A DNA stretch of 64,000 nt from a virus, in IMG/VR virus record IMGVR_UViG_3300032116_000067, positions 36,265-100,264 of that record; one strand, given 5' to 3'. Below the pieces are notes generated by a model. The model saw only the letters and a program-made list of their open reading frames with translations, was not told the origin of the DNA and searched no databases. Of this stretch, positions 229-48,892 are shown in pieces. The position numbers were made by a program, and so were the translations under genes. Numbering within the stretch: position 1 is the stretch's first letter; every line of letters begins with the position of its first letter.

Positions 229-353
229 AGTCAGGTGGCGAAATTGGTAGACGCGAGTGGTGTGTTAAATGTGGGAATAGACATAATCCCTAACCCTATA
301 AAAAGGGCTGACCGCTTGTCTCTTAGTTGCAGGTTCGATTCCTGTCCTGACTG
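229..353 (+). tRNA. tRNA-Leu-like RNA with an expanded anticodon arm
   Basis: A 7-bp acceptor stem pairs AGTCAGG (229-235) with CCTGACT (346-352), followed by discriminator G353. The D arm (238-254) has the Leu-type sequence GCG...GGTAGACGC. The T arm (329-345) has a 5-bp stem and the canonical loop TTCGATT. Between D and T arms, AGTGGT (256-261) pairs with ACCGCT (311-316) as an anticodon stem, but the enclosed segment is about 49 nt instead of 7. It contains the potential hairpins GGGA/TCCC and CCCT/AGGG. With G262-A268 read as the loop (GTGTTAA), about 42 nt would be an insert at position 38. It is therefore either a tRNA with an unusual insert or a tRNA-like decoy; the amino-acid identity is not certain. 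Confidence 0.6.
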
Positions 354-564: not shown

Positions 565-704
565 AGTCAGGTGGCGGAATTAGTAGACGCACAATGGGAT
601 GCACGGTGTGACTCCGTGGAAGTGCTCCTCAAAAGGTTGAGCTACCCGTTGTAACAAAGACCCGAAGTACAAGGGTTGTGCCGGGGCAGAACCGGCCTTG
701 ACTA
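565..704 (+). ncRNA. second tRNA-Leu-like element, degenerate T loop, expanded anticodon arm
   Basis: The first 26 bases are nearly identical to the element at 229: acceptor AGTCAGG at 565-571 and D arm 574-590 with GTAGACGC. The 3' acceptor strand CTTGACT (697-703) pairs with one G-U. It is directly preceded by a T-arm-shaped hairpin (GCCGG 680-684, 7-nt loop GGCAGAA, CCGGC 692-696) whose loop lacks the TTC signature. CAATGGG (592-598) pairs with CCCGTTG (645-651) as an anticodon stem, but the enclosed region is 46 nt with its own hairpins, CACGG/CCGTG (7-nt loop) and CTCAA/TTGAG. A long variable arm ACCC/GGGT lies at 659-676. It has tRNA shape but is unlikely to be aminoacylated normally. 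Confidence 0.5.
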
Positions 705-1026
705 CACTATCTCCTTTTTAGTTTATAATTCATAAGTATCGACTGAAAAGACGAACTAACGTTCCGGGTGTGCCACCGGATAGTATGCCCTATACGATGA
801 GAAGTACGCTGGCTGCGTACATGGGTAAGTGGCGGTTACTTGGTAACAGCAGGCTGATCACCTGAACATCGACAATGTGAACGATCTATTCCTAACCCAC
901 CTAGAAAATATAGCAGAGAAGACACCGAAAGTCTTCTGTGGGGACAGCCGCAACACCTGTAAGTTGGATAGATTAGGGTGCTTTCTTCTATTTTCTTCAA
1001 ACACTCACTTATAAACTTCTCCATTC
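705..1026 (+). ncRNA. gene-free, hairpin-rich region (probable structured RNA)
   Basis: No convincing reading frame. Perfect or near-perfect hairpins follow each other: TCCGG/CCGGA (763-780), GTACGC/GCGTAC (804-820), GTTAC/GTAAC (835-847), CAGG/CCTG (849-863) and CCCAC (896-900) with GTGGG (938-942). The last encloses AGAAGAC/GTCTTCT (917-937, 7-nt loop). Together with the tRNA-like element upstream this suggests one multi-helix RNA of about 430 nt. I looked for the conserved core elements of group I introns, RNase P RNA, tmRNA and SRP RNA and did not recognise them. No class assigned. Confidence 0.4.
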
Positions 1027-3281: not shown

Positions 3282-3680
3282 ATGGAAAAAGAGTTTGTTC
3301 CTTATACTGAGTCACTTGAACTCAAGCAACTGGGGTTTGATGAACCTTGTTTAGGTGCATGGGCAGAACATGGTTTTATGACACCTAATGATGTTTCTAC
3401 CTTACAAGATGATGTTACTATAGAAGATATAAAGAATACACAGGATGAAAATATGTGTCTATCTCCACTTTATCAACAAGCCTTTCGTTGGTTTAGAGAA
3501 TATCAAGACTGGCCCATAGAGTCTTGGATACAACCATATTTATCAGATAAGCCCCGGCAGCATGAAGCATTTTATTGGAGGCGTGGTGAAACTATATCTA
3601 TCGGAATCTTTTCAACTTATGAAGAAGCAGAACTTGCTTGTCTGCGTAAACTCATAAATCTGGTAAAACAGAAACCATGA
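3282..3680 (+). CDS. conserved phage protein of the FVPY...LELK-LGF-EPC family
   Basis: A 132-residue protein. The N-terminal signature E-FVPY-ESLELKQLGFDEPC, a central QA-RWFRE-Y segment, an aromatic region (AFYWRRGE) and a C-terminal Y-EAELACLRKLI helix are shared with the gene at 4692. I recognise this as a family common in phages and prophages of gut Bacteroidetes, without known function. Its stop overlaps the next start by 4 bp. Confidence 0.75.
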   Translation: MEKEFVPYTESLELKQLGFDEPCLGAWAEHGFMTPNDVSTLQDDVTIEDIKNTQDENMCLSPLYQQAFRWFREYQDWPIESWIQPYLSDKPRQHEAFYWRRGETISIGIFSTYEEAELACLRKLINLVKQKP

Positions 3681-4009
3681 CAGAAGTACAAGAACGTATC
3701 TACTCTGCTGCTATCTGGTACAAAGACCTAGCAGTCCCAGACTGGGTAGGACTATCAAACGCTCCTGATATGCGTGGTATCGTAATCAAGGGTCACAGAC
3801 ACGCTGATATTATTCATACGGTGTATACGCTTATTGGTAAACGCACCTGTTGTAACGGATCCGACTGTGTTGGAGAATTTGAATAGGGCTTTGTCACCAA
3901 CAAGGGTCGGTTTGTAGACAGACAGGAAGCTATGGTGATAGCACGGGCCGCTGATCAGGTCATATCTGATACTACCTCTGATACACTTTATTCTGAAGAC
4001 TTATACTAA
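3677..4009 (+). CDS. conserved small phage protein interrupted by an in-frame amber codon
   Basis: The conventional reading ends at TAG 3884-3886 after 69 codons. The same frame continues without a break for 40 more codons to TAA 4007-4009. The continuation reads GFVTNKGRFVDRQEAM...LYSEDLY. From memory of the family, full-length members contain a Q-GF-T--NRFVDR-EA stretch and end in LFSEDLY, so the TAG seems to sit where Gln is expected (CAG to TAG). The N-terminal part has a GIVIKGHRHADII block. The product is thus 110 codons if the amber codon is read through, or a truncated 69-residue protein if not. TAG is a genuine stop in other genes here, so general reassignment is unlikely. Confidence 0.7.
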
Positions 4010-4188
4010 CTCTGTGATGGTTTTCTGTGGAAAGCGTAAGCACCTAACAAAACCTTGTGGTAGCCGTTGGACTGCAAGGGTAATACGGGAAAACAGATGA
4101 CGACTCGGAAAGACGAGTACCTTTTTTTGCTCCGGGGATCACACCATCCGTTAAACTGGTTGTGTTAAAACTCTTGTTAATTGATGTC
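4010..4188 (+). ncRNA. gene-free structured region with terminator
   Basis: No supportable gene. GTTTTC (about 4019-4024) can pair with GAAAAC (about 4089-4094), enclosing CCTTG/CAAGG. A separate stem-loop with ACAC/GTGT ends lies near 4141-4164. This looks like another folded RNA similar in style to 565-1020, and it includes the terminator listed next. Confidence 0.3.
4103..4128 (+). terminator. Rho-independent-type terminator
   Basis: ACTCG (4103-4107) pairs with CGAGT (4114-4118) around a 6-nt GAAAGA loop; seven T residues follow at 4122-4128. It closes the first block of small genes. Confidence 0.7.
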
Positions 4189-4239
4189 CGTCTCCCGACC
4201 TCGTAGAGTGAGCTTCTACAAATATTGGTTGGGGAGACG
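4189..4239 (+). promoter_or_regulatory. long stable hairpin in the leader of the next gene
   Basis: CGTCTCCC (4189-4196) pairs perfectly with GGGAGACG (4232-4239). Inside, ACC/GGT and a 5-bp GTAGA/TCTAC stem with a 7-nt loop (4203-4219) extend it. There is no T-run after it. It ends 33 bases before the ATG at 4273 and may control or stabilise that mRNA, or be another tRNA-shaped remnant. Confidence 0.45.
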
Positions 4240-4272
4240 AGCCATCATTCTATTAACCTATCAATCCGAATC

Positions 4273-4413
4273 ATGAAAGAAGCGTTACAAGTAATCTTTC
4301 TGTTTAAGAAACCTTCCTGGGACTATTATACCCGGTGGCCTTATATAGGGTTTGGTATTGTAGCCTGGACAGAAGTTCTTCTTGTTCTTATTGCTTTACT
4401 CCTAAGCTTATAA
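4273..4413 (+). CDS. small membrane protein
   Basis: Read from ATG 4273, giving 46 residues. A longer reading from TTG 4225 would start inside the stable hairpin and is rejected. The C-terminal half (residues 26-46) is one transmembrane helix rich in Val, Leu, Ile and Ala; the N-terminal half is aromatic and basic. One of several one-helix proteins in the window. Function unknown. Confidence 0.5.
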   Translation: MKEALQVIFLFKKPSWDYYTRWPYIGFGIVAWTEVLLVLIALLLSL

Positions 4414-4417
4414 AACC

Positions 4418-4681
4418 ATGTCTACAGAGATAAAGACTATCCGCGGCACCCATCATGTGCATAAAAGCATCTTTACGTTTGAAGTAGAACGTCCGCCGGC
4501 CGATATTCATGTAACCCGGTTCTACAACGGTAAAGAGTTAGGCACCCAAGTTCAGATTACCATTCAACAGTTTCAAGGTAATGGGTACACTTCATATATT
4601 CACTTGAGTGAGGAACAGTGTAAAGAACTAGCCCAGACTCTTCTGGAAGCCTTTGATCATAACAAGTATCCTTCAGAGTAA
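4418..4681 (+). CDS. small hypothetical protein
   Basis: An 87-residue protein with beta-rich N-terminal two thirds and a C-terminal helix (LSEEQCKELAQTLLEAF). Similar in layout to the 69-residue protein at 1027. It starts four bases after the upstream stop. No catalytic motif; function unknown. Confidence 0.65.
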   Translation: MSTEIKTIRGTHHVHKSIFTFEVERPPADIHVTRFYNGKELGTQVQITIQQFQGNGYTSYIHLSEEQCKELAQTLLEAFDHNKYPSE

Positions 4682-4691
4682 AAAGATCATA

Positions 4692-5102
4692 ATGGAAGAA
4701 CTTTTTGTACCGTATCAGGAATCCCTAAATCTTAAAGAACTAGGGTATAACGAGCCCTGCTTTGCGTACTACGGGGAGATCAACGGTGGCGAGATAGAAC
4801 TGTTCTACAAGCGTCACTATGATACAGAAGCCAGGTATCTGTTAGCCCCGACGTTTTCCCAGGCTTCCCAGTGGATCCGTGATACATACGGTATTCATTC
4901 CTGGATAGACTGGATGACACGTAGTACACTACACTCTGGATACTTCGTATGCTTCCGCGGTATGGATCACAGGCTCAACGATGACAACTTTGCGTTCATA
5001 CCGGGTGATCATGGTTCAGGGCATTACGTTTTTCCTACGTATTATGAAGCCGAGGTTGCTCGTATTCAGCATCTTATTACTATGGTAAAACAAAGACAAT
5101 GA
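4692..5102 (+). CDS. second member of the FVPY...LNLK-LGY-EPC family
   Basis: A 136-residue paralogue of the protein at 3282. It shares E-FVPYQESLNLKELGYNEPC at the N-terminus, the QA-QWIRD-YGIHSWID segment and the C-terminal Y-EAEVARI-HLI. The ATG at 4692 is chosen because the family motif begins there; an ATG at 4653 adds 13 residues with no family resemblance. The stop overlaps the next start (ATGA). Function unknown. Confidence 0.75.
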   Translation: MEELFVPYQESLNLKELGYNEPCFAYYGEINGGEIELFYKRHYDTEARYLLAPTFSQASQWIRDTYGIHSWIDWMTRSTLHSGYFVCFRGMDHRLNDDNFAFIPGDHGSGHYVFPTYYEAEVARIQHLITMVKQRQ

Positions 5103-5956
5103 AAAACGTACACGTTATTCCAACAGACAAGCCAAGTAAAATAGGTCAATCTATTTTTGATGAGTCTTTACATTTTAATCCAATTTTTAATTATAAATTA
5201 GAAAAGGAAAGGGTTATACCTCAAAACATCTACATCACTTCTAATGAAGAAATTAAAGAAGGAGATTGGATTATTTGGAATAATAAAGTTGTAAAAGCTA
5301 TTGATACTGCTTATTACTCTGCGAAAAAAATTATCCTAACAACAGACCAAGACTTAATCAAAGATGGTGTACAAGCTATTGATGATACATTCTTAGAATG
5401 GTTTGTTAAGAATCCAAGTTGTGAGTGGGTTGAGGTTGAAGAATTTACTGTTAAAGTAGATTTGTTGGAATATAAAACAAGTTACAAAATAATCATTCCA
5501 AAAGAAGAACCTAAACTAGTCAATAACTGTTTTAAGTGTGGTTTAGATTTAGTCATAAAAGAAACTTCTGTACCAGTTTGTACAGATATTGATTGTCGTG
5601 GTATTATACTTAGTAATGAAACATTAAGAGAGTGGGCATTACAAAGAGAAAGACAAAAGCAACATCTCATTGACATAATGAAAGGAGATGAAGAGTTGGG
5701 GTTATATGATGAAGAACCTAAACAAGAACCCACTCTTGAAGAAGCAGGAGTAATTGCCGCTGGTTTATGCCAACATTTAGAAGCAAAAGAACAAGCTATG
5801 TTTATTGCAGGTTTTATTGAATGTGCTAAATGGCAAGCAGAAAGAATGTATAGTGAGGAAGATATGGTTAATTTTGCTTTATTTTTAGAAATACATTTAC
5901 CTATGAAACCTAGAAAAACTCATCGTCAATTACTTGAACAATATAAAAAGAAATGA
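5099..5956 (+). CDS. conserved Bacteroidetes phage protein with IYIT-EEIKEGDW and zinc-ribbon parts
   Basis: A 285-residue protein. The N-terminus (NVHVIPTDKPS, then IYITSNEEIKEGDWIIW, then KIILTTDQDLIKDGVQAIDD and LEWFVKNPSCEWVEVE) matches a family I recognise as very common in Bacteroidetes phages, function unknown. Residues 143-164 hold a CFKC...CTDIDC zinc ribbon. The C-terminal helical region (AAGL...AKWQAERMYSEEDM) is another common phage module. The gene is visibly more AT-rich than its neighbours, which suggests recent exchange. A nine-codon remnant of the same N-terminus appears at 36429. Confidence 0.8.
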   Translation: MKNVHVIPTDKPSKIGQSIFDESLHFNPIFNYKLEKERVIPQNIYITSNEEIKEGDWIIWNNKVVKAIDTAYYSAKKIILTTDQDLIKDGVQAIDDTFLEWFVKNPSCEWVEVEEFTVKVDLLEYKTSYKIIIPKEEPKLVNNCFKCGLDLVIKETSVPVCTDIDCRGIILSNETLREWALQRERQKQHLIDIMKGDEELGLYDEEPKQEPTLEEAGVIAAGLCQHLEAKEQAMFIAGFIECAKWQAERMYSEEDMVNFALFLEIHLPMKPRKTHRQLLEQYKKK

Positions 5957-8526: not shown

Positions 8527-8553
8527 GTAGTCCTTTTTTTTAATCCTCAATGA

Positions 8554-8580
8554 AGCGTGGTAGAGTATCACGCTTTTTTA
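8554..8580 (+). terminator. Rho-independent-type terminator
   Basis: AGCGTG (8554-8559) and CACGCT (8569-8574) enclose a 9-nt loop; a run of T follows to 8579. It closes the 6339-8526 block. Confidence 0.75.
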
Positions 8581-8602
8581 TTCACGTCAATTAACACAAG
8601 TC

Positions 8603-8953
8603 ATGACCAGCGTTAAGAAACTCCCCCAAGACGAGCTAAACAAACTGCACACTCTGCTGATCAATGGGCACGGTCTTACTAAGATTTCCAAGCAAACAGG
8701 TCTTCCTTACAGCCTGGTACAGAGTGTAAGAAAAAGAATGGTTGAAGCAGGTATAGTAAAACCGCTGTATAAAACATCAGGTAAAAAGCGTGCAAGCAGA
8801 AAGCATCGTATCCCTGCAGAAGCCCCGGCCGCTGATATTGCGGTGGCTCAAGATATGCCGCAGTTTACTCTGATGATCAATGGCACCCAGATTGATCTGA
8901 AGAATGTGAAGTCCGTGTTTATCTCTCCGGAGTTGGTTGATGTCAAATATTGA
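8603..8953 (+). CDS. helix-turn-helix DNA-binding protein
   Basis: A 116-residue protein. Residues 6-48 form a resolvase/sigma-like HTH (LHTLLINGHGLTKISKQTG, then LVQSVRKRMVEAG). A Lys/Arg-rich linker (about 50-72) and a C-terminal domain with FTLMINGTQIDLKNV follow. This layout, HTH plus a short C-terminal strand region, is common in small phage proteins and suggests a transcription regulator or DNA-binding adaptor. The target is unknown; candidates are the repeated GTTCTACAA sites. Confidence 0.65.
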   Translation: MTSVKKLPQDELNKLHTLLINGHGLTKISKQTGLPYSLVQSVRKRMVEAGIVKPLYKTSGKKRASRKHRIPAEAPAADIAVAQDMPQFTLMINGTQIDLKNVKSVFISPELVDVKY

Positions 8954-11578: not shown

Positions 11579-11581
11579 GCT

Positions 11582-11692
11582 ATGAGTAAACGTAATGAGA
11601 TCCAGGATCAAGCCCTGGAGATAGCCTTCAGGCATCAACGCTGTGGCTTGGGTATCTCGATGGGTTTGTTTGTAAAAGTTCTACAATATTAG
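11582..11692 (+). pseudogene. orphaned original N-terminus of the SNF2-type helicase
   Basis: A 36-codon frame whose residues 7-28 (IQDQALEIAFRH, then CGLGISMG) align position by position with residues 10-30 of the intact helicase at 12349 (IQADAIEVALNH, then CSLALSMG). The frame runs out exactly where the Walker A lysine region should begin and enters AT-rich DNA that carries the promoter of the GIY-YIG gene. This is the displaced original 5' end of the helicase gene. Confidence 0.75.
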
Positions 11693-11710
11693 TATATTAT
11701 ATTATAGAAC
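11678..11710 (+). promoter_or_regulatory. promoter/operator of the GIY-YIG gene
   Basis: GTTCTACA (11678-11685) and ATAGAAC (11704-11710) form a spaced inverted pair around TATATTATATTA. The same motif precedes other phage genes, so the inserted element uses the phage's own expression signals. Confidence 0.5.
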
Positions 11711-11723
11711 AAATCTAAACCCT

Positions 11724-12386
11724 ATGAAAATTCCAAGGTCTTTTGGTTTAAAAACTTGTGGTATATACTGTATAACTAATACTAGTAACAAAAAACAGTA
11801 TATCGGTAGTAGTAAAAATATATACCATAGGTTAAAACGGCATCAGTCAGAGCTGCGACGAGGTATTCATGCCAACCCGCATCTTCAAAACAGTTATAAT
11901 AAGCATGGTAAAAACTGCTTTGAGGTCTCAATTCTTGAAGAAGTTCCTGTAGAACTTTTAGTCCAAAAAGAACAGGAGTATATTAATAATCTAGAACCAG
12001 CATATAATATCACACTAGAAGTTATTAGAAATACTCCTTCTCAAGAGTCTAGAAGAAAAATCTCAGCTACTCTAAAACAGCAAAAGTTAATGGGTTTATT
12101 AAAATATCCTACGCATGATGATAAAAAAAAACCAGTGACAATATACGATATAGACTGTAACTGTTTTGGAACTTATGAATCTGAGCGGGCTGCTGCTAAA
12201 AAGTTAGAAGAGCTTTATCCCGGGCTAAAGTACTCTCAATCCGTAGTCAACAGTACTATAAACTTAAAAAACAAAAGAGTAGTTAGTAGATATAAAAGGC
12301 ATTTCTTGCTTAGACCTGAACAGAAATGTATTACTAAAAAAGAGCTATGTGAAACAAAAAAATACAAGAGACAGTATACAAGCTGA
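11724..12386 (+). CDS. GIY-YIG homing endonuclease
   Basis: A 220-residue protein. The N-terminal domain has GIY (residues 13-15), QYIGSS (25-30), a conserved Arg at about 36, HLQNSYNKHG-NCFEVSILEE and EQEYINNLEPAYNI, the standard order for GIY-YIG nucleases (UvrC/I-TevI class). The C-terminal part contains PVTIYDIDCNCFGTYES-RAAAKKL, a NUMOD1-like DNA-recognition module. The gene is clearly more AT-rich than both flanks and splits the helicase gene, as expected of a mobile homing endonuclease gene. Its 3' end overlaps the helicase start by 38 bp. Confidence 0.9.
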   Translation: MKIPRSFGLKTCGIYCITNTSNKKQYIGSSKNIYHRLKRHQSELRRGIHANPHLQNSYNKHGKNCFEVSILEEVPVELLVQKEQEYINNLEPAYNITLEVIRNTPSQESRRKISATLKQQKLMGLLKYPTHDDKKKPVTIYDIDCNCFGTYESERAAAKKLEELYPGLKYSQSVVNSTINLKNKRVVSRYKRHFLLRPEQKCITKKELCETKKYKRQYTS

Positions 12387-13491
12387 TGCTATAGAAGTTG
12401 CTTTAAATCACAAATGTTGTTCGTTAGCCTTAAGCATGGGGGTCGGTAAAACCCTCATCGGACTACGATACTTGGACCATTACCAGCAGTCTAACATGTA
12501 CAAGCTCAATGTGCTGGTAGTGGCTCCAAAGCTCAGCATATTTCAGAGCTGGCAAGATGACGCAGTAAAGTTTGGCCTTCCCCAGGAACTCCTGGAGAAG
12601 GTCACCTTTACCACGTATCTATCACTAAACAAACATAACCCGCATCACTATGACATAGTGGTGTTGGACGAGTGTCACAGTCTTTTAGAGTCCCATCAAA
12701 CTTTCCTGGCTAACTACCACGGTAGAGTACTGGGTCTGACGGGTACTCCGCCCCGGTATCACAACAGTGAAAAAGGCAGGATCGTCGGTAAGTACTGTCC
12801 TGTGATGTTTAAGTACATCACCGATGACGCGGTAGATGATCAGATCCTGAATGATTACCGGATCATCGTACACCGGATGCCATTAAGTACCCAGAATACG
12901 ATACCGGTAACTATGAAGAACAGTACGTTCATGACCTCTGAGCGTAAAAGCTATGACTACTGGAGCAAACGTATCATGGAAGCCCAGAGTAAAAAGCAGG
13001 AACAGATCTCGTCCGTTATGCGAATGAGGGTCCTGATGGACTTTCGAACCAAAGAAGACTACGCCAAGTATCTACTGGAAGAAATAGAAGAAAAGTGTAT
13101 TGTCTTCTGTAACACCCAAGCCCAGGCAGATCGTGTATGCAGTCACTCGGTACACTCCGAGAACCCAGACGCAGAAGCAAACCTTGACATGTTTAAGAAA
13201 GACCAGATCGACAAGCTATCCTGTGTACTGCAGCTCAACGAGGGTATCAATATTCCAAACCTTCGGGCCGGGATCATTATGCATGCATACGGCAACGAGC
13301 GCAAGAGTTCACAGCGTATCGGACGTCTGCTTCGTCTGAACCCAGACGACACAGCGGTGGTGCACATACTCTGCTACCAGAATACGGTAGACGAGCGGTG
13401 GGTCACGGAAGCTTTAAAAGACCTGGACCAGAACAAGATCAAGTATCACGATGTAAACATGAGTAGTCATGAATCTTCATTTCAACGGTAA
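12349..13491 (+). CDS. SNF2/SF2-type DNA helicase
   Basis: A 380-residue protein from a GTG start inside the end of the endonuclease gene. Motif I SMGVGKT lies at residues 29-35, motif II DECH at about 107-110, motif III LTGTPPR at about 130, and motif VI SSQRIGRLLR at about 321. These order and spacings are those of superfamily 2 helicases used by crAss-like phages in replication or recombination. The first 30 residues were supplied by the DNA that came with the endonuclease insertion. The 3' end overlaps the next gene by 23 bp. Confidence 0.9.
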   Translation: MKQKNTRDSIQADAIEVALNHKCCSLALSMGVGKTLIGLRYLDHYQQSNMYKLNVLVVAPKLSIFQSWQDDAVKFGLPQELLEKVTFTTYLSLNKHNPHHYDIVVLDECHSLLESHQTFLANYHGRVLGLTGTPPRYHNSEKGRIVGKYCPVMFKYITDDAVDDQILNDYRIIVHRMPLSTQNTIPVTMKNSTFMTSERKSYDYWSKRIMEAQSKKQEQISSVMRMRVLMDFRTKEDYAKYLLEEIEEKCIVFCNTQAQADRVCSHSVHSENPDAEANLDMFKKDQIDKLSCVLQLNEGINIPNLRAGIIMHAYGNERKSSQRIGRLLRLNPDDTAVVHILCYQNTVDERWVTEALKDLDQNKIKYHDVNMSSHESSFQR

Positions 13492-28348: not shown

Positions 28349-29366
28349 AAGCATCATGCAAGAATCCGTAGAACTCATGGAACAAGAGTTCTACAATAAA
28401 AAGATGTACTTCTCGTACAGTAGTCTGAATAAGCTGATCTGGAACCCCCAGGTCTTTTATCAGATGTACGTATTGGGAATGAAAGAAGAACGAGTAGAAA
28501 GCCACCTGGTACAGGGTAAGATTATCCACGTCCTGTTACTAGAAGAAGACAAGTTCAATGATCTTTTCATCGTATCCCCTACCAGTTTACCCACCGGTAA
28601 CCTGCGTACTGTAGTTGACCGGGTCTTTAACCACTACAAAGAACTGTCACGCAACGGTGATCCCCGGGAAAAGCTCGAAGAGTTTGATAAAGCAATCCTG
28701 GATGTGATGGCTGATATGAACTATCATCAGTCACTGAAGACCGATCAGCAACGTCTGGATAAAATCCTGACGGCTGAAGCCTTCAACTACTGGAGATTTC
28801 TCCAGATGAAGCAAGACAAGACCATCATTGACGCGGATACTTTAAAGTTCTGCCAGAGTGCTGTAGAGATCATCAAGACCAACCAACAGGTCTGTAATCT
28901 CTTAGGTATGAATACTACTGAGTTTGATAGCAAACAGGTGATCAATGAAGAACAGATACAATTAGATCTTGGTAATAAAGTCTATGGACTCAAAGGCATT
29001 ATTGATAACATCGTTATTGATTACGACAACAAAGTAATCTACATCAATGACATCAAGACCACGTCAAAAGATCTCAAAGACTTCCCTGAAAGTATTGAGT
29101 ACTACTCATACTGGATGCAGGCTGTGATCTATATGATGTTGGTTACTAAAGAGCATATAGACTTGATTCAGTCAGGCTTTACTGCCAGGTTCCACTTTGT
29201 GGTAATAGACCGTGCTTTTCAAAGCTACGCCTTCCCGGTTACGGAAAAGACGATGAATAGCTGGTTGGATAGATTCAACGCTATCCTGGAGAAAGCAGAA
29301 TGGCATTATCACAATAAAAACTACGAGCTTCCTTACGAGTTCGCACAAGGGCTGGTAGTTCTCTAA
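28338..29366 (+). CDS. PD-(D/E)XK nuclease (RecB/Cas4-like)
   Basis: A 342-residue protein. The N-terminal SYSSLNKLIWNPQVFYQMYVLG is the usual opening of RecB-type phage exonucleases. The catalytic core is KGIIDNIVIDYDNKVIYINDIKTT (about 219-242), giving the D...D-x-K pattern. A YWMQAVIYMML helix follows and supplies the QxxxY-like motif. Likely a DNA exonuclease paired with the Sak4/SSB recombination system. The ATG at 28338 overlaps the previous gene by 11 bp. Confidence 0.85.
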   Translation: MKLESIMQESVELMEQEFYNKKMYFSYSSLNKLIWNPQVFYQMYVLGMKEERVESHLVQGKIIHVLLLEEDKFNDLFIVSPTSLPTGNLRTVVDRVFNHYKELSRNGDPREKLEEFDKAILDVMADMNYHQSLKTDQQRLDKILTAEAFNYWRFLQMKQDKTIIDADTLKFCQSAVEIIKTNQQVCNLLGMNTTEFDSKQVINEEQIQLDLGNKVYGLKGIIDNIVIDYDNKVIYINDIKTTSKDLKDFPESIEYYSYWMQAVIYMMLVTKEHIDLIQSGFTARFHFVVIDRAFQSYAFPVTEKTMNSWLDRFNAILEKAEWHYHNKNYELPYEFAQGLVVL

Positions 29367-29966: not shown

Positions 29967-30368
29967 ATGAATAAATCAATGATGCTCGTAACCGGCAGCT
30001 GGGGTAACCAGAAGACGTTCAAGCTGATTCCGCTCTCTCCCGATTGTCCATATAACGAAGCAATCTTTGATCGTGACAGTAAAGTACTGGCTCTGATCGG
30101 TAAAGAGAAGAAGCAGAGCATGCACATGGTAGCCAAGCTGGATGATAACGGTGATGTAAAGACCATGAGAATAGGCCGCCGGACCAACGGTAAAGACTAC
30201 GCTGAAGAGCGTAAGACACTGGAGACGTACTACGAGTACTACATCGAGAACCCGGAAGAAATCAAAGCTCTAGTGAACTTCTTTGCGTTCAACGCAGACA
30301 CGTTTGATTTCAATCAATACCTGGAGCAGGCGTACGAAGGGCAACCTGCTAACCTTATCACTGTCTAA
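29967..30368 (+). CDS. conserved phage hypothetical protein
   Basis: A 133-residue protein: beta-rich first half (MMLVTGSWGNQKTFKLIPLSPDCPYNEAIFD, then VLALIGKEKKQSMHMVAKLD) and helical second half with ETYYEYYIENPEEI. Own promoter and own strong terminator, so probably expressed at a distinct level. No function recognised. Confidence 0.7.
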   Translation: MNKSMMLVTGSWGNQKTFKLIPLSPDCPYNEAIFDRDSKVLALIGKEKKQSMHMVAKLDDNGDVKTMRIGRRTNGKDYAEERKTLETYYEYYIENPEEIKALVNFFAFNADTFDFNQYLEQAYEGQPANLITV

Positions 30369-30380
30369 GACAGCCCTGTG

Positions 30381-30428
30381 AGCAAAAACCCAAGAAGGCA
30401 GGTAACACTGCCTTTTTTTGGGCTTGCT
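30381..30428 (+). terminator. Rho-independent-type terminator, two-tier stem
   Basis: Inner stem AAGGCAG (30395-30401) / CTGCCTT (30408-30414) with T-run; an outer GCAA...CCCAA / TTGGG...TTGC stem extends it. Confidence 0.8.
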
Positions 30429-30461
30429 CCATAACGAAAAGGGGGAACAGCTTAACTGAAC

Positions 30462-35781: not shown

Positions 35782-36075
35782 ATGAACAACAAATACATCA
35801 TTGTCAATAAGACAAAGATTCTAGAAGAAATAGAGGAGTTAAAAGCAAGTTTGAATTATATACCTGAGTCTTATGTAGCAAAACATTTAGCTCAAATATA
35901 TGTATATGAGCAGGTGCTTCTTAGATCAACTCCTTTAATTCCTGAAAATGTAAAACCATTACAGGAATTAGTTGATGAAGGATATGACCCTTATGATTCT
36001 GCACATCATTTACAAGTGCAAAAAATGTTAAAGGTAATAGAAAACTACATCTCAAACTTAAAACTTGATATATGA
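35782..36075 (+). CDS. YIIVNKT...STPLIPE family, copy 1
   Basis: 97 residues. Pattern: YIIVNKTKILEEIEELK, a middle helix, LLRSTPLIPE, and the ending ISNLKLDI. A second family of tiny proteins common in Bacteroidetes phages, function unknown. Both its start and its stop lie in copies of the 26-bp repeat. Confidence 0.75.
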   Translation: MNNKYIIVNKTKILEEIEELKASLNYIPESYVAKHLAQIYVYEQVLLRSTPLIPENVKPLQELVDEGYDPYDSAHHLQVQKMLKVIENYISNLKLDI

Positions 36076-45100: not shown

Positions 45101-48100
45101 CTTGCTGATCTGATCTTGCATTTTGATACGCTCAGATACTTTTGCATTAGAAGCAATGTTTTCAAAACGCTCAAGAAGATCTGTGAGTTTCTTGATCATC
45201 TCAGCCAGATTAGTATCCTCGTCAGTCTCTTCTTTTAATGTCACTGGAAGAAGGTAATCTTTATTAGGATCAGTATACCTGGTATCAACAGGGCCTATTT
45301 CTACACTCTTAAGGCTGTCAAGTTTCTTTTCACCTACTTTACCTGTATAGTTAAAGTTTGTCTTAATAGGTACAGCGCGAATCTTTCCGAACTTAGTGAA
45401 TCCATAGACATTACGAAGAATATTCACATATTCTTGTAACTGTATCTGATAAGCTTTCTCTTTATACGAAGGAAGCTCGGTTTTATCTTTCCCGATTTCC
45501 TGGCTCTTCCAGTCGTATACGTTTACTGTACCGTCTGGAGTGATGGCGATAAAGTCAATACTACCGGCCATGTCTTGTGTCGGGTCATAGATCTTAATCT
45601 CCCGCATGAAGACAGTATTTGGGTCGTAGCTACTGATCAGCTCTCGAACGTATGAATCAAGGGTATTGTAGTAATCAGTGCCGACATACTGTGACCGTGA
45701 AGCTACTGGGGTAGCCCTGCGTTTGTTTGTATTGGGATCTATATAAGAATCAATGATGTCTTCAATAGTAGCGTGGATCATATCTCCATACTCGGCTTTT
45801 AAGAGATCAAGCTCTTTTTTACGCTTGTCTCTTTTATCCTGGCGGAAGATTGACCGGTAGTAAGGATCCACCTTAGCCGTAGTTACGTTTTTAGAGATAG
45901 CTTTATCACCCCTGTAGTAGATGTGACGCTTCTGCCCGGTCCGGGGATCTACGCTGTTATCCAGACGTAAGAGTTTGGCTTCTTCTTTAAGCTTGGTTAC
46001 TCCATCGTTAAGCTGATAATACGTACCGTCTAGTGATTTAGAAGTGTTAAGATCAGATACATCTGCAGATAAGATCTGCTTGGCAACCTGCTCAAAAGGA
46101 TTGTCTTCTACCCTACTAAAAGATTTAGTAACAAACTCCCAAAGCTTAGCCCACCACTTGTTCAAAAAGCTCAGACGCTCGGGAGTTTCTTTACCCTCGT
46201 TCTGTCTGATGATAGCCTGGGCAACCAGTTTACCTATCGCTTCCTTCTTGAGCTTAACGAAGTTGATGCCCCCGCCAGGTAGTCTGTACTCGGGGCGGTT
46301 CTTGTATTGTTCTACGGTTTCACGATAGAGCTCATAGCTGGTGATCTTGTCCATCATCTCTTTGAGTAAGGGACTATTGTCATCCAGCATCTCTACAAAG
46401 AAGTGAGCGGCTTCTTCCGGCAGAGTACTTAGATCTGCGTTACCTTCTATGATCTCAATGATCTTATTGAGCATATCGGCTTTAGCTATAGCTGATACCG
46501 GCTCACCGTTCATGTCTTTGATCTGATTAACTTTCTCTACAGAGACTCCTATCTTATCAAGGAAGTTCTTGATCTTCTGATCAAGCTCTTTGTTTGTCGG
46601 CAGAGAAGTCTCCTTAGCTATTTGCAAATAGGTTGATGACTGTGTACCTGACTGAGCAACAAACTGCTTGAAGCCTTTTACATCTTGTTCACTACCTAAT
46701 ATGTGAATCTGTTCTGGTTCAAAAACAGCTATTTCTGTATTTCCTCTTATAGCACCCGTCATACCATCTACTCCAATAGCTGATAGCTGTGGTGAATAAT
46801 TTCCTATATATTTTCCATGATCACCTGTAACATAAGGATCATGAGGTATGCCGCTCAGTTCAGAAAGGGCTTTTTCAAAGATTCCTAACCCTTTTTGATC
46901 TTTGAAACTTGTTCTATCAATGATTTCTCTTCTGGTAGATAGATTTTTAACATTTAAGATTACGGATTCAGTATGACTTCTATTGGCATCATATTTTTTA
47001 GTTCGATCAGTATAGAAATAAAAACCGTCTCCTAAAACACCTCCGTCAGAAATACCAATCATATCTTTTCTAAAACCTTCTATTTTGATCTGACCTTTAC
47101 CGCCATCGTGATACACAATATCTTTCACATTACTATCAGGAAATATAGTATCAAGATATTGAGAGTATAGTTGTTGAGCTTGTTGTTTTGCAGACCTAGC
47201 TTTTTCAAATATATAATTTGATTTATCAGTCCCTGAGAAGTTTTCAATTATGTCGGGTCTTTTTTCAAGCAGTTTTAAATAAGCAGTCTTACCTAAACCT
47301 TTTCCTTGATATTCTGTTTCAATAACAGACTGAAAAATACTTGTACCTTCTACTTGAAATTCTCCTATATATTTTCCTTTTAACTTTATTATATAATTTT
47401 TACCCATTGGAGAAGATGGTAAACCTTCTTCAATGGTTATATCATTGTAATTATTAAACCCTAAAGCTTCATATACAGCATTAGCTAATTCAGGATTCTC
47501 CTGAAACAATTCAGCTACACCGGGTTTTACCGTAGAGCTTGCATCTTGATTGGTCTGATAGTAAACAAACTCAGAACGAGACACACCTAGATTATTCGGG
47601 GTGGACAGCACATAATCCTGCTGATCTTTTTCACGTTGAAACAGTCTTTCTTCACTGTTTAACGGACTCATCTTAAGCTTACCGGCATAGATATCTTGCC
47701 AGCTTTTAAAGATGTCTACGTCTGTTTCTTGTGACTTATAATAATAAACAAAGAAGTCAGTGGCTATGACGTTTTCACTTGTCATAGGTACTACTTTTCC
47801 TGTAGCTTTCTCAATAACTTCTCCTTTTTCTGCCCAACCGTTTACCTTTCGCTTAGTAACTCGCACGTCATAACCGGCTGCCGGAATAAAGTAAGCGTAC
47901 GTTGTATAGTTATCACCTTTCCAACCATTATGGACAGGGACTGCACCGATCTGATCCATATAGTTTACAAGATCATTATAATCCTGTACGTCTTCTACTA
48001 TAAAATCAAGATCATGTATAGGCTCCGATGACGGTCTGTAGATCTTCTCGCCTTGTCCTGCAATAGCCAAGCTACCAACTAGCTTAAAGTTAAACTTGTT

Positions 48101-48892
48101 CTTAGTGAACGTATTTATAATATTCTGAGCATGGGGATTGCCATCTAACGCTTTTTGAAAGTCAAGCTGCTCTTTAGTGTTGGTCAGGTTTGCTATGTAG
48201 TTCTGATTACCAGAAAGAACATTGACAGCAATCTTATCAGCTAAGTACTTAGAAGCAAAGACAGCTTCAAGAGGATTAGCAAAAAGAGTATCTAACCTGG
48301 CAAAGAACTCTTTAACGATCTGTTTTACTTTGTTCAGTAATGATTTATCTAGCCCATACTGATCATAGTTTTCCACCATGGCTTGCGCGATCAGCTTTCC
48401 TATGGCTTCAATCTTTACCTGCTTCTCATTATTATAGATCGGCATGTACTTGTCATAAACCTCTTGATATCCAGACCATAGCTTGATCTCGGAAAGCAAG
48501 CTCTTTATGTCTGAGTGGTTCTCTCCCATGAGCATTACGATCATGTGGGCCGCCTCTTCCGGGATAGTATCTTTCCTGCGTTCTTTGTTGTACCAGATAA
48601 GCTTGTTTAAAACATCAGTAGCTCCCAAGGCATCTATACCCAGACGTTGTTTCAAGGATTCAAACTCCTTGGATTTTACTCCAAAAGGCTTAAGGAAGTT
48701 TAAAAGAAAATCATCTAACTCTTTATTAGCCTGGGTAGTCAAGGGGCTTGCCAGCTGGTAGTAATTCCGCATGATCTCATCCATCGTCAGATTTGATCCG
48801 GACATATCCAGCACTTTAGCTGCCAGGGGTTCCGATCGTAAAACAGACAGCGTTTGTTGTACAAGGGGTAAGGACTTATTAAGACACTTCAT
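42137..48892 (-). CDS. giant polyvalent protein with MNT-, GNAT-, ART- and PD-(D/E)XK-like domains
   Basis: 2,251 residues from ATG 48892, four bases after the stop of the RNA polymerase gene. A helical module with EEAAH (112-116) is repeated at about 770-940 (EEAAH 826-830). Between them lie three domains. First, a nucleotidyltransferase-like fold: GSLAIAG at 273 and HDLDFIV, D294/D296. Second, a GNAT-like motif YQGKGLGKTAY (528-538). Third, an ADP-ribosyltransferase-like domain: IVYHDGG about 592, GDGFYFYTD about 621, FEPEQIHIL about 724. A PD-(D/E)XK domain follows: H1040, AGSIDFI with D1113, DWK 1127-1129, QLQEY 1151-1155. The remainder is coiled coil and a C-terminal region with FRSWMPQMVKERFG, familiar from crAss-like giant proteins. 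Probably virion-packaged and injected; effector roles inferred. Confidence 0.8.
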   Translation of the reverse strand: MKCLNKSLPLVQQTLSVLRSEPLAAKVLDMSGSNLTMDEIMRNYYQLASPLTTQANKELDDFLLNFLKPFGVKSKEFESLKQRLGIDALGATDVLNKLIWYNKERRKDTIPEEAAHMIVMLMGENHSDIKSLLSEIKLWSGYQEVYDKYMPIYNNEKQVKIEAIGKLIAQAMVENYDQYGLDKSLLNKVKQIVKEFFARLDTLFANPLEAVFASKYLADKIAVNVLSGNQNYIANLTNTKEQLDFQKALDGNPHAQNIINTFTKNKFNFKLVGSLAIAGQGEKIYRPSSEPIHDLDFIVEDVQDYNDLVNYMDQIGAVPVHNGWKGDNYTTYAYFIPAAGYDVRVTKRKVNGWAEKGEVIEKATGKVVPMTSENVIATDFFVYYYKSQETDVDIFKSWQDIYAGKLKMSPLNSEERLFQREKDQQDYVLSTPNNLGVSRSEFVYYQTNQDASSTVKPGVAELFQENPELANAVYEALGFNNYNDITIEEGLPSSPMGKNYIIKLKGKYIGEFQVEGTSIFQSVIETEYQGKGLGKTAYLKLLEKRPDIIENFSGTDKSNYIFEKARSAKQQAQQLYSQYLDTIFPDSNVKDIVYHDGGKGQIKIEGFRKDMIGISDGGVLGDGFYFYTDRTKKYDANRSHTESVILNVKNLSTRREIIDRTSFKDQKGLGIFEKALSELSGIPHDPYVTGDHGKYIGNYSPQLSAIGVDGMTGAIRGNTEIAVFEPEQIHILGSEQDVKGFKQFVAQSGTQSSTYLQIAKETSLPTNKELDQKIKNFLDKIGVSVEKVNQIKDMNGEPVSAIAKADMLNKIIEIIEGNADLSTLPEEAAHFFVEMLDDNSPLLKEMMDKITSYELYRETVEQYKNRPEYRLPGGGINFVKLKKEAIGKLVAQAIIRQNEGKETPERLSFLNKWWAKLWEFVTKSFSRVEDNPFEQVAKQILSADVSDLNTSKSLDGTYYQLNDGVTKLKEEAKLLRLDNSVDPRTGQKRHIYYRGDKAISKNVTTAKVDPYYRSIFRQDKRDKRKKELDLLKAEYGDMIHATIEDIIDSYIDPNTNKRRATPVASRSQYVGTDYYNTLDSYVRELISSYDPNTVFMREIKIYDPTQDMAGSIDFIAITPDGTVNVYDWKSQEIGKDKTELPSYKEKAYQIQLQEYVNILRNVYGFTKFGKIRAVPIKTNFNYTGKVGEKKLDSLKSVEIGPVDTRYTDPNKDYLLPVTLKEETDEDTNLAEMIKKLTDLLERFENIASNAKVSERIKMQDQISKYRKAIRDLHLRKDIRTFIELGSIEVDRYDKMLKNNTLSERDALESLDILKIFSGTTFYFKNYMTELRKAMNEEKNSAMKQVYQDILNRYNSLNSNAEITVKEMKRAIMQLGQKMAEDKAGIQNLLNAETKVGPIAGLFDSLSQISQRAFKAFYRILRDSQAKRDMLFNQSLETLRTLQKELGDWAKARNISPDKMFDGILDMDEKGNWNGQFLRKHKKEAYKVRKKAIEEADINWVKSNMNFDKTWYEKDLASYTKYVMNMTYNTDPQINAAIQQKTINNWIANHNVTANGDNPAAWLNAQNKYLRFNDTWITDKWKNLQKPENAPLLKVYNEFQKLLRKSENLGMIDEYSWGFIPSIYKDKLDQLAFGGSVFTSKGFFEELEVGTDDKYTPKVDPINGKVLLNIPVHFTKDIGEEKEDGTVDYSQKSKDLFKVFGVWSAQMANYETLSEIEDAANILVHVERNKDQIVTNNWGDVVKKNGVAQTVPDNERNAKLLESFVNFYLYNKMGDNTTDSKFKFRDKEYSANKSLRWFMKFFSLKTLALNPISGTAQFVGGTGNALFTAGKKTIFTTKDWATSMYQVTKRDPKTIALLHYADILLEDRKDAFTNELSVSKIVGFNSLDKLYFIQRFSDKAVQYPVAIATMMNHMVDTNGKIVDITKMVKQEFNYDQVYYNVLPAERKALKEKIDARVKELKETKSIYATTKIVKDKLEIPGIDISSKEWFAFKSKIKQVNKTIIGNSTRDDINYARTTQLGMAIMQFRSWMPQMVKERFGKLDYNQDLELYNMGKTRLFFSELIKHPMTIAKSIISSSGTDMIQAAKQRYIEERADAALAGKEFNLTEAEFIDLYIGNIRSQLRELAVVVGMLALIFAAKPGDDEDEERGLRKYITRALEKYYAEFSFYYLPTSFTELVQAPLPVVGLAVDFINFTKATSKQFYGVAVDDTELQEDAKPMKYASRLIPILKEGILMRAIFDDDFRKDWDIRL

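Follow-up and report, generated by a model that had tools for sequence, protein, structure and literature searches.

The window analysed here is a stretch of 64,000 nucleotides, which corresponds to bases 36265-100264 of a virus record of 100,264 bases (IMGVR_UViG_3300032116_000067). Within it, the ORF 3677-3886 runs from ATG to TAG and encodes 69 amino acids. If the TAG at 3884-3886 is read as a residue, the frame stays open up to the TAA at 4007-4009 and yields a protein of 110 amino acids; the first-pass annotation, according to which this stop interrupts a frame that is clean for 40 more codons, is borne out. The features of the locus, given here with reference to the closest relative (L004/L017), are:

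3282..3680, plus strand: upstream neighbour, encoding a protein that begins MEKEFVPY; its stop codon (TGA) and the start codon (ATG) of the interrupted gene overlap, and L017 has the same gene order
3677..3886, plus strand: head of the interrupted gene, an Arn.3-like (phrog_839) 5' part of 69 codons that ends at the premature TAG
3884..3886, plus strand: premature TAG, codon 70 of the gene; the same-locus relative reads CAG here, and all 53 homologues encode Q
3887..4009, plus strand: tail of the gene, 40 codons with the family-invariant residues GF...F..R.E...SEDLY, closed by a TAA at the family's end point
3890..4560: segment about 3% diverged from L004/L017, compared with 21% for the preceding 213 bases; a probable recombination tract

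The interrupted gene is single-copy, and no paralogues of it were found in the genome. The annotation had appealed to a family; homologues elsewhere do carry the tail, but the window holds no further family copy. Diverged paralogues of one protein flank the gene (window 3282-3680 and 4653-5102) and share a start like EEFVPYxESLxLKxLGFxEPC; the relative has three of these paralogues (L017:3371-3775, 5031-5471 and 5468-5869), compared with two in this genome.

With the TAG read as Gln, the 110-residue protein matches phrog_839 over its full length (E 3.1e-25). The 69-residue head (E 1.6e-5) and the 40-residue tail (E 2.5e-13) each match this family by themselves, and hence the open frame beyond the TAG is more than chance. 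The family runs on to a SEDLY ending, and the tail is thus part of the gene, in agreement with the conserved motif and ending that had been recognized after the stop. A total of 634 phage records match the 110-residue protein, including full-length ones that end at the same place. Arn.3 of phage T4, encoded in the motA-arn-asiA cluster, is a member of phrog_839 (E 3.5e-73) and its alignment with the profile of the family extends to the SEDLY terminus (hhalign 97.6%). A literature search returned no paper naming Arn.3.

Codon 70 encodes Gln in all 53 IMG/VR homologues (33 CAA, 20 CAG), a set that is partly biased, since one of the two search patterns included the Q itself. In a smaller set, retrieved mostly by tblastn, six of seven homologues have Q at this position and Tenacibaculum phage pT24 has S. 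A stop at codon 70 occurs in none of the 53 homologues; an ending of the family at this point, which would have spoken against an interruption, was thus not encountered, and the Gln anticipated by the annotation is confirmed. At the same locus L004, which is 91% identical at the protein level, carries CAG in place of the TAG of the window. The family motif QGF...R.E...SEDLY is broken by the TAG at its Q codon, while its other residues are present; likewise, the residues invariant in 53/53 homologues are, with the exception of codon 70, all kept in head and tail, so that an independent sign of decay is missing, a point against a nonsense allele; eight of these invariant columns lie in the tail. 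A Gly-to-Asp change at codon 93 was considered as a sign of decay and dropped, as four relatives also have D there. The gene thus has a premature stop at a conserved sense codon and intact homologues at the same locus, and a recent nonsense allele in a small accessory gene is, in our judgement, the most likely and a rather probable reading. The fresh CAG-to-TAG mutation that had been listed among several options is supported by the CAG of the same-locus relative and by the Q of the 53 homologues.

A TAG in a metagenome consensus might also be a sequencing or assembly error, in which case the real phage would carry CAG and an intact gene. Such an error would agree with a one-base transition as the sole defect, other family-invariant residues being intact and codons 1-69 strongly constrained. 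Furthermore, a single assembled sequence of the phage is available. Megablast found no database records close to it, and an IMG/VR pattern scan for the TAG or CAG version, which may omit near-identical records, had the relative as its sole match and gave no second record with TAG. On the other hand, the interruption is the only one among the compared genes, and therefore the assembly is not generally error-ridden; nor does the context contain a homopolymer or low complexity. In the approximately 17 kb in common with the relative, no real gene but this one is broken by a stop in its frame; the remaining cases on the forward strand fall in intergenic DNA or out-of-frame ORFs. A comparison with ORFs from additional relatives, which match 15 kb of the record, disclosed no other interrupted gene. 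A second candidate for a stop at a Q position (window ~8533-8610, FFNPQ*SVVEY) was rejected, as it is intergenic and its stop is a TGA located 5' of the next gene's start. We consider an error unlikely, though the second most likely reading, and infer that the change is real.

The protein of the intact relative, modelled with AlphaFold2 (mean pLDDT 87, pTM 0.80), comprises strands at residues 8-15, 35-39, 68-74 and 79-81 and helices at 42-53 and 82-91. Residue 70 is placed inside strand 68-74, and the tail contains helix 82-91. A stop after residue 69 would cut the third strand and remove the second helix as well as the C-terminal motif, which makes loss of function likely; according to the model, the 69-residue product is probably inactive. 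No match to a solved structure was found in the PDB at E <= 0.001, and the fold search matched other uncharacterised phage proteins only, weakly including "large polyvalent protein" domains. The loss of such an accessory gene is probably tolerable. Alternatively, the 69-residue product could be a functional shortened protein, for which the tail is now dispensable. The strong constraint on the head (dN/dS 0.06) is compatible with this idea, yet that value is an average over a divergence that may greatly predate the stop; the eight invariant columns of the tail, the position of residue 70 within a strand and the helix in the tail also argue against it, and we regard a functional short form as highly improbable.

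The divergence from the relative changes abruptly just past the stop. Over codons 1-71, 44 of 213 bases differ (20.7%), compared with 5 of 117 (4.3%) in the tail, 7 of 265 (2.6%) in the non-coding stretch 4010-4274 and 1.4-2.8% in the next ORFs up to about position 4560. The drop occurs within a few bases 3' of the stop (Fisher p 9e-15, an optimistic value since the break point was picked by eye). The block 3890-4560 takes in the tail, the non-coding stretch and the next ORFs, and as its silent and non-coding sites are little diverged as well, recent recombination is suggested. The non-coding stretch of 265 bases, 97% identical to the relative, contains a hairpin with a trailing T-run near 4100-4127; it has no Rfam match, and its folding energy is ordinary (z -0.39). 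In codons 1-69, dS versus L004 is 1.3 at a dN/dS of 0.06, which indicates that selection preserved the gene through most of this divergence; the stop is hence probably recent.

No further decay is seen in the tail after the stop, and the annotation had taken this as an argument for translation. The argument fails, as the adjoining non-coding DNA is equally conserved (2.6% versus 4.3%, Fisher p 0.52). At the divergence of the block, this branch should have brought only about two changes into the tail, and therefore an intact tail would appear whether it is translated or not.

Readthrough of the stop has to be weighed here: a suppressor tRNA of the host or an unseen one of the phage, or misreading by a near-cognate tRNA-Gln, could provide some full-length protein in a leaky or regulated manner. 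The frame 3' of the stop is intact to the family's end, and Crassvirales are known to use TAG suppression, for which a suppressor tRNA is not always detectable (PMC7886860). However, the tail is no more conserved than the non-coding DNA beside it, TAG works as a terminator in this genome, and searches of the record and of sampled regions of relatives revealed no CUA tRNA. Neither is a stop at codon 70 shared by any of the family members examined. The readthrough site proposed earlier thus lacks positive evidence, and we consider it very unlikely.

The preferred nonsense allele would have arisen by a single C-to-T transition, which converted the conserved Gln codon CAG, codon 70 of 110 in the Arn.3-like gene, into TAG. 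Translation would end after 69 residues, in the midst of a predicted beta strand, leaving a product that is probably inactive. The gene would have been under purifying selection until recently, and the tail would look undamaged for two reasons: the time elapsed is too short, and the segment was recently shared, probably by recombination, with the intact relative.

The genome looks crAss-like in its sequence. Part of an ORF of 4,998 amino acids matches Bacteroides, Flavobacterium, Cellulophaga and uncultured gut crAss-like phages, several of these matches falling at genes annotated as RNA polymerase, and a portal, a major head and a DNA polymerase protein can be identified. The phage uses the standard code. 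In 16 long ORFs, 14,983 codons comprise 767 Gln codons and no TAG. As the annotation had stated, TAG also ends real genes: 13 of 128 non-overlapping ORFs of at least 60 amino acids end in TAG, and two of these genes (87 and 131 amino acids) share their TAG end with the relative. The search for a tRNA with a CUA anticodon, advised earlier, was negative by ARAGORN and Rfam across the whole 100-kb record, which has no terminal repeat and may be incomplete, so that a suppressor tRNA could lie outside. Among 29 calls of ARAGORN at the relaxed setting -ps80, a "Pyl (cta)" at record 28424-28497 (score 28) was dismissed as noise without Rfam support. Of the relatives with gene copies 57-66% identical, three have 12-26 tRNA matches, with no CUA among those named by ARAGORN; in relatives G006 and G009 the tRNA search had no match. 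The sampled 20-kb regions of relatives carry no code-15 signature. A recoded genome or ancestor was rejected on the codon usage of the record and of these samples, and the notion of a relic falls with it, as TAG does not stand for an amino acid in either and the searches revealed no CUA tRNA.

Several non-coding elements were observed in this genome and its relative. Leu-like (class II) tRNA-like elements are located at window 229-353 and ~563-700, at record 35869-35956 (L003:15869-15956) and at L017:246-370 and 522-649. Their acceptor, D-arm (GTCAGGTGGCGAAATTGGTAGACGC) and T-arm are conserved, and mostly long divergent inserts replace the anticodon arm; the element at L017:522 has an anticodon stem-loop (CCAGTG-GAAA-CACTGG). 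The elements look non-decoding. A CUA tRNA hidden among them was rejected, since no U33-CUA loop occurs at window 229-353 or record 35869-35956. A literature search combining tRNA-like elements and crAss-like phages found no paper. A second non-coding stretch common with L017 (window 700-1000, L017 ~650-930) ends in a T-run and has no Rfam match, and upstream of the window a full-length Hatchet self-cleaving ribozyme was detected (78 bits; L003:10306-10438, record 30306-30438). An insertion at window 11580-12390 (record 47844-48650), absent from L017, contains an ORF (11724-12386) that is GIY-YIG-like by eye; on either side of it there is a match to the initial codons of the gene next to it (L017 13785-14918). 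The relative harbours a group I intron (L017:7071-7287, 85.5 bits), for which Rfam gave no counterpart in this genome.

Finally, the locus might mark the beginning of a TAG-to-Gln recoding, with its first TAG in frame, or a switch by which readthrough of an early accessory gene depends on a host suppressor, in either case caught before other genes gained TAG codons. This reading is scarcely probable. A lone in-frame TAG in a crAss-like phage does not constitute evidence of recoding, just as a tail free of decay does not speak for translation where the adjoining non-coding DNA is equally conserved. Should a suppressor turn up, the onset of recoding could be examined at this locus.

A close parallel is the reassignment of TAG to Gln in Crassvirales (code 15; PMC7886860, PMC9523058), with which the locus has in common a crAss-like phage and a TAG at a conserved Gln codon. 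Reported code-15 cases have in-frame TAGs in several genes, mostly late, and often suppressor tRNAs (PMC7886860, PMC9523058), and in published recoded crAss-like phages the TAGs are located in readily identified conserved genes, most of them late (PMC7886860). In contrast, the present genome has a single in-frame TAG, in one small gene, and its long ORFs, virion genes among them, are free of it; unlike many code-15 cases the record has no recognisable suppressor tRNA. Of the hallmarks of code 15, namely multiple in-frame TAGs, a TAG that is not a terminator and a frequent but not obligatory CUA tRNA, none is seen. The incipient recoding of OFRY01000050 (PMC7886860) is similar in having TAGs at conserved positions and relatives on the standard code. 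OFRY01000050, however, had gained a TAG-suppressor tRNA, and its TAGs are in conserved genes such as TerL (PMC7886860), neither of which was seen in the present case. Compared with T4 Arn.3, the interrupted gene and its close relatives are shorter by about 55 N-terminal residues, and the interrupted gene differs from the phrog_839/Arn.3 family in its TAG at codon 70, which breaks its frame.
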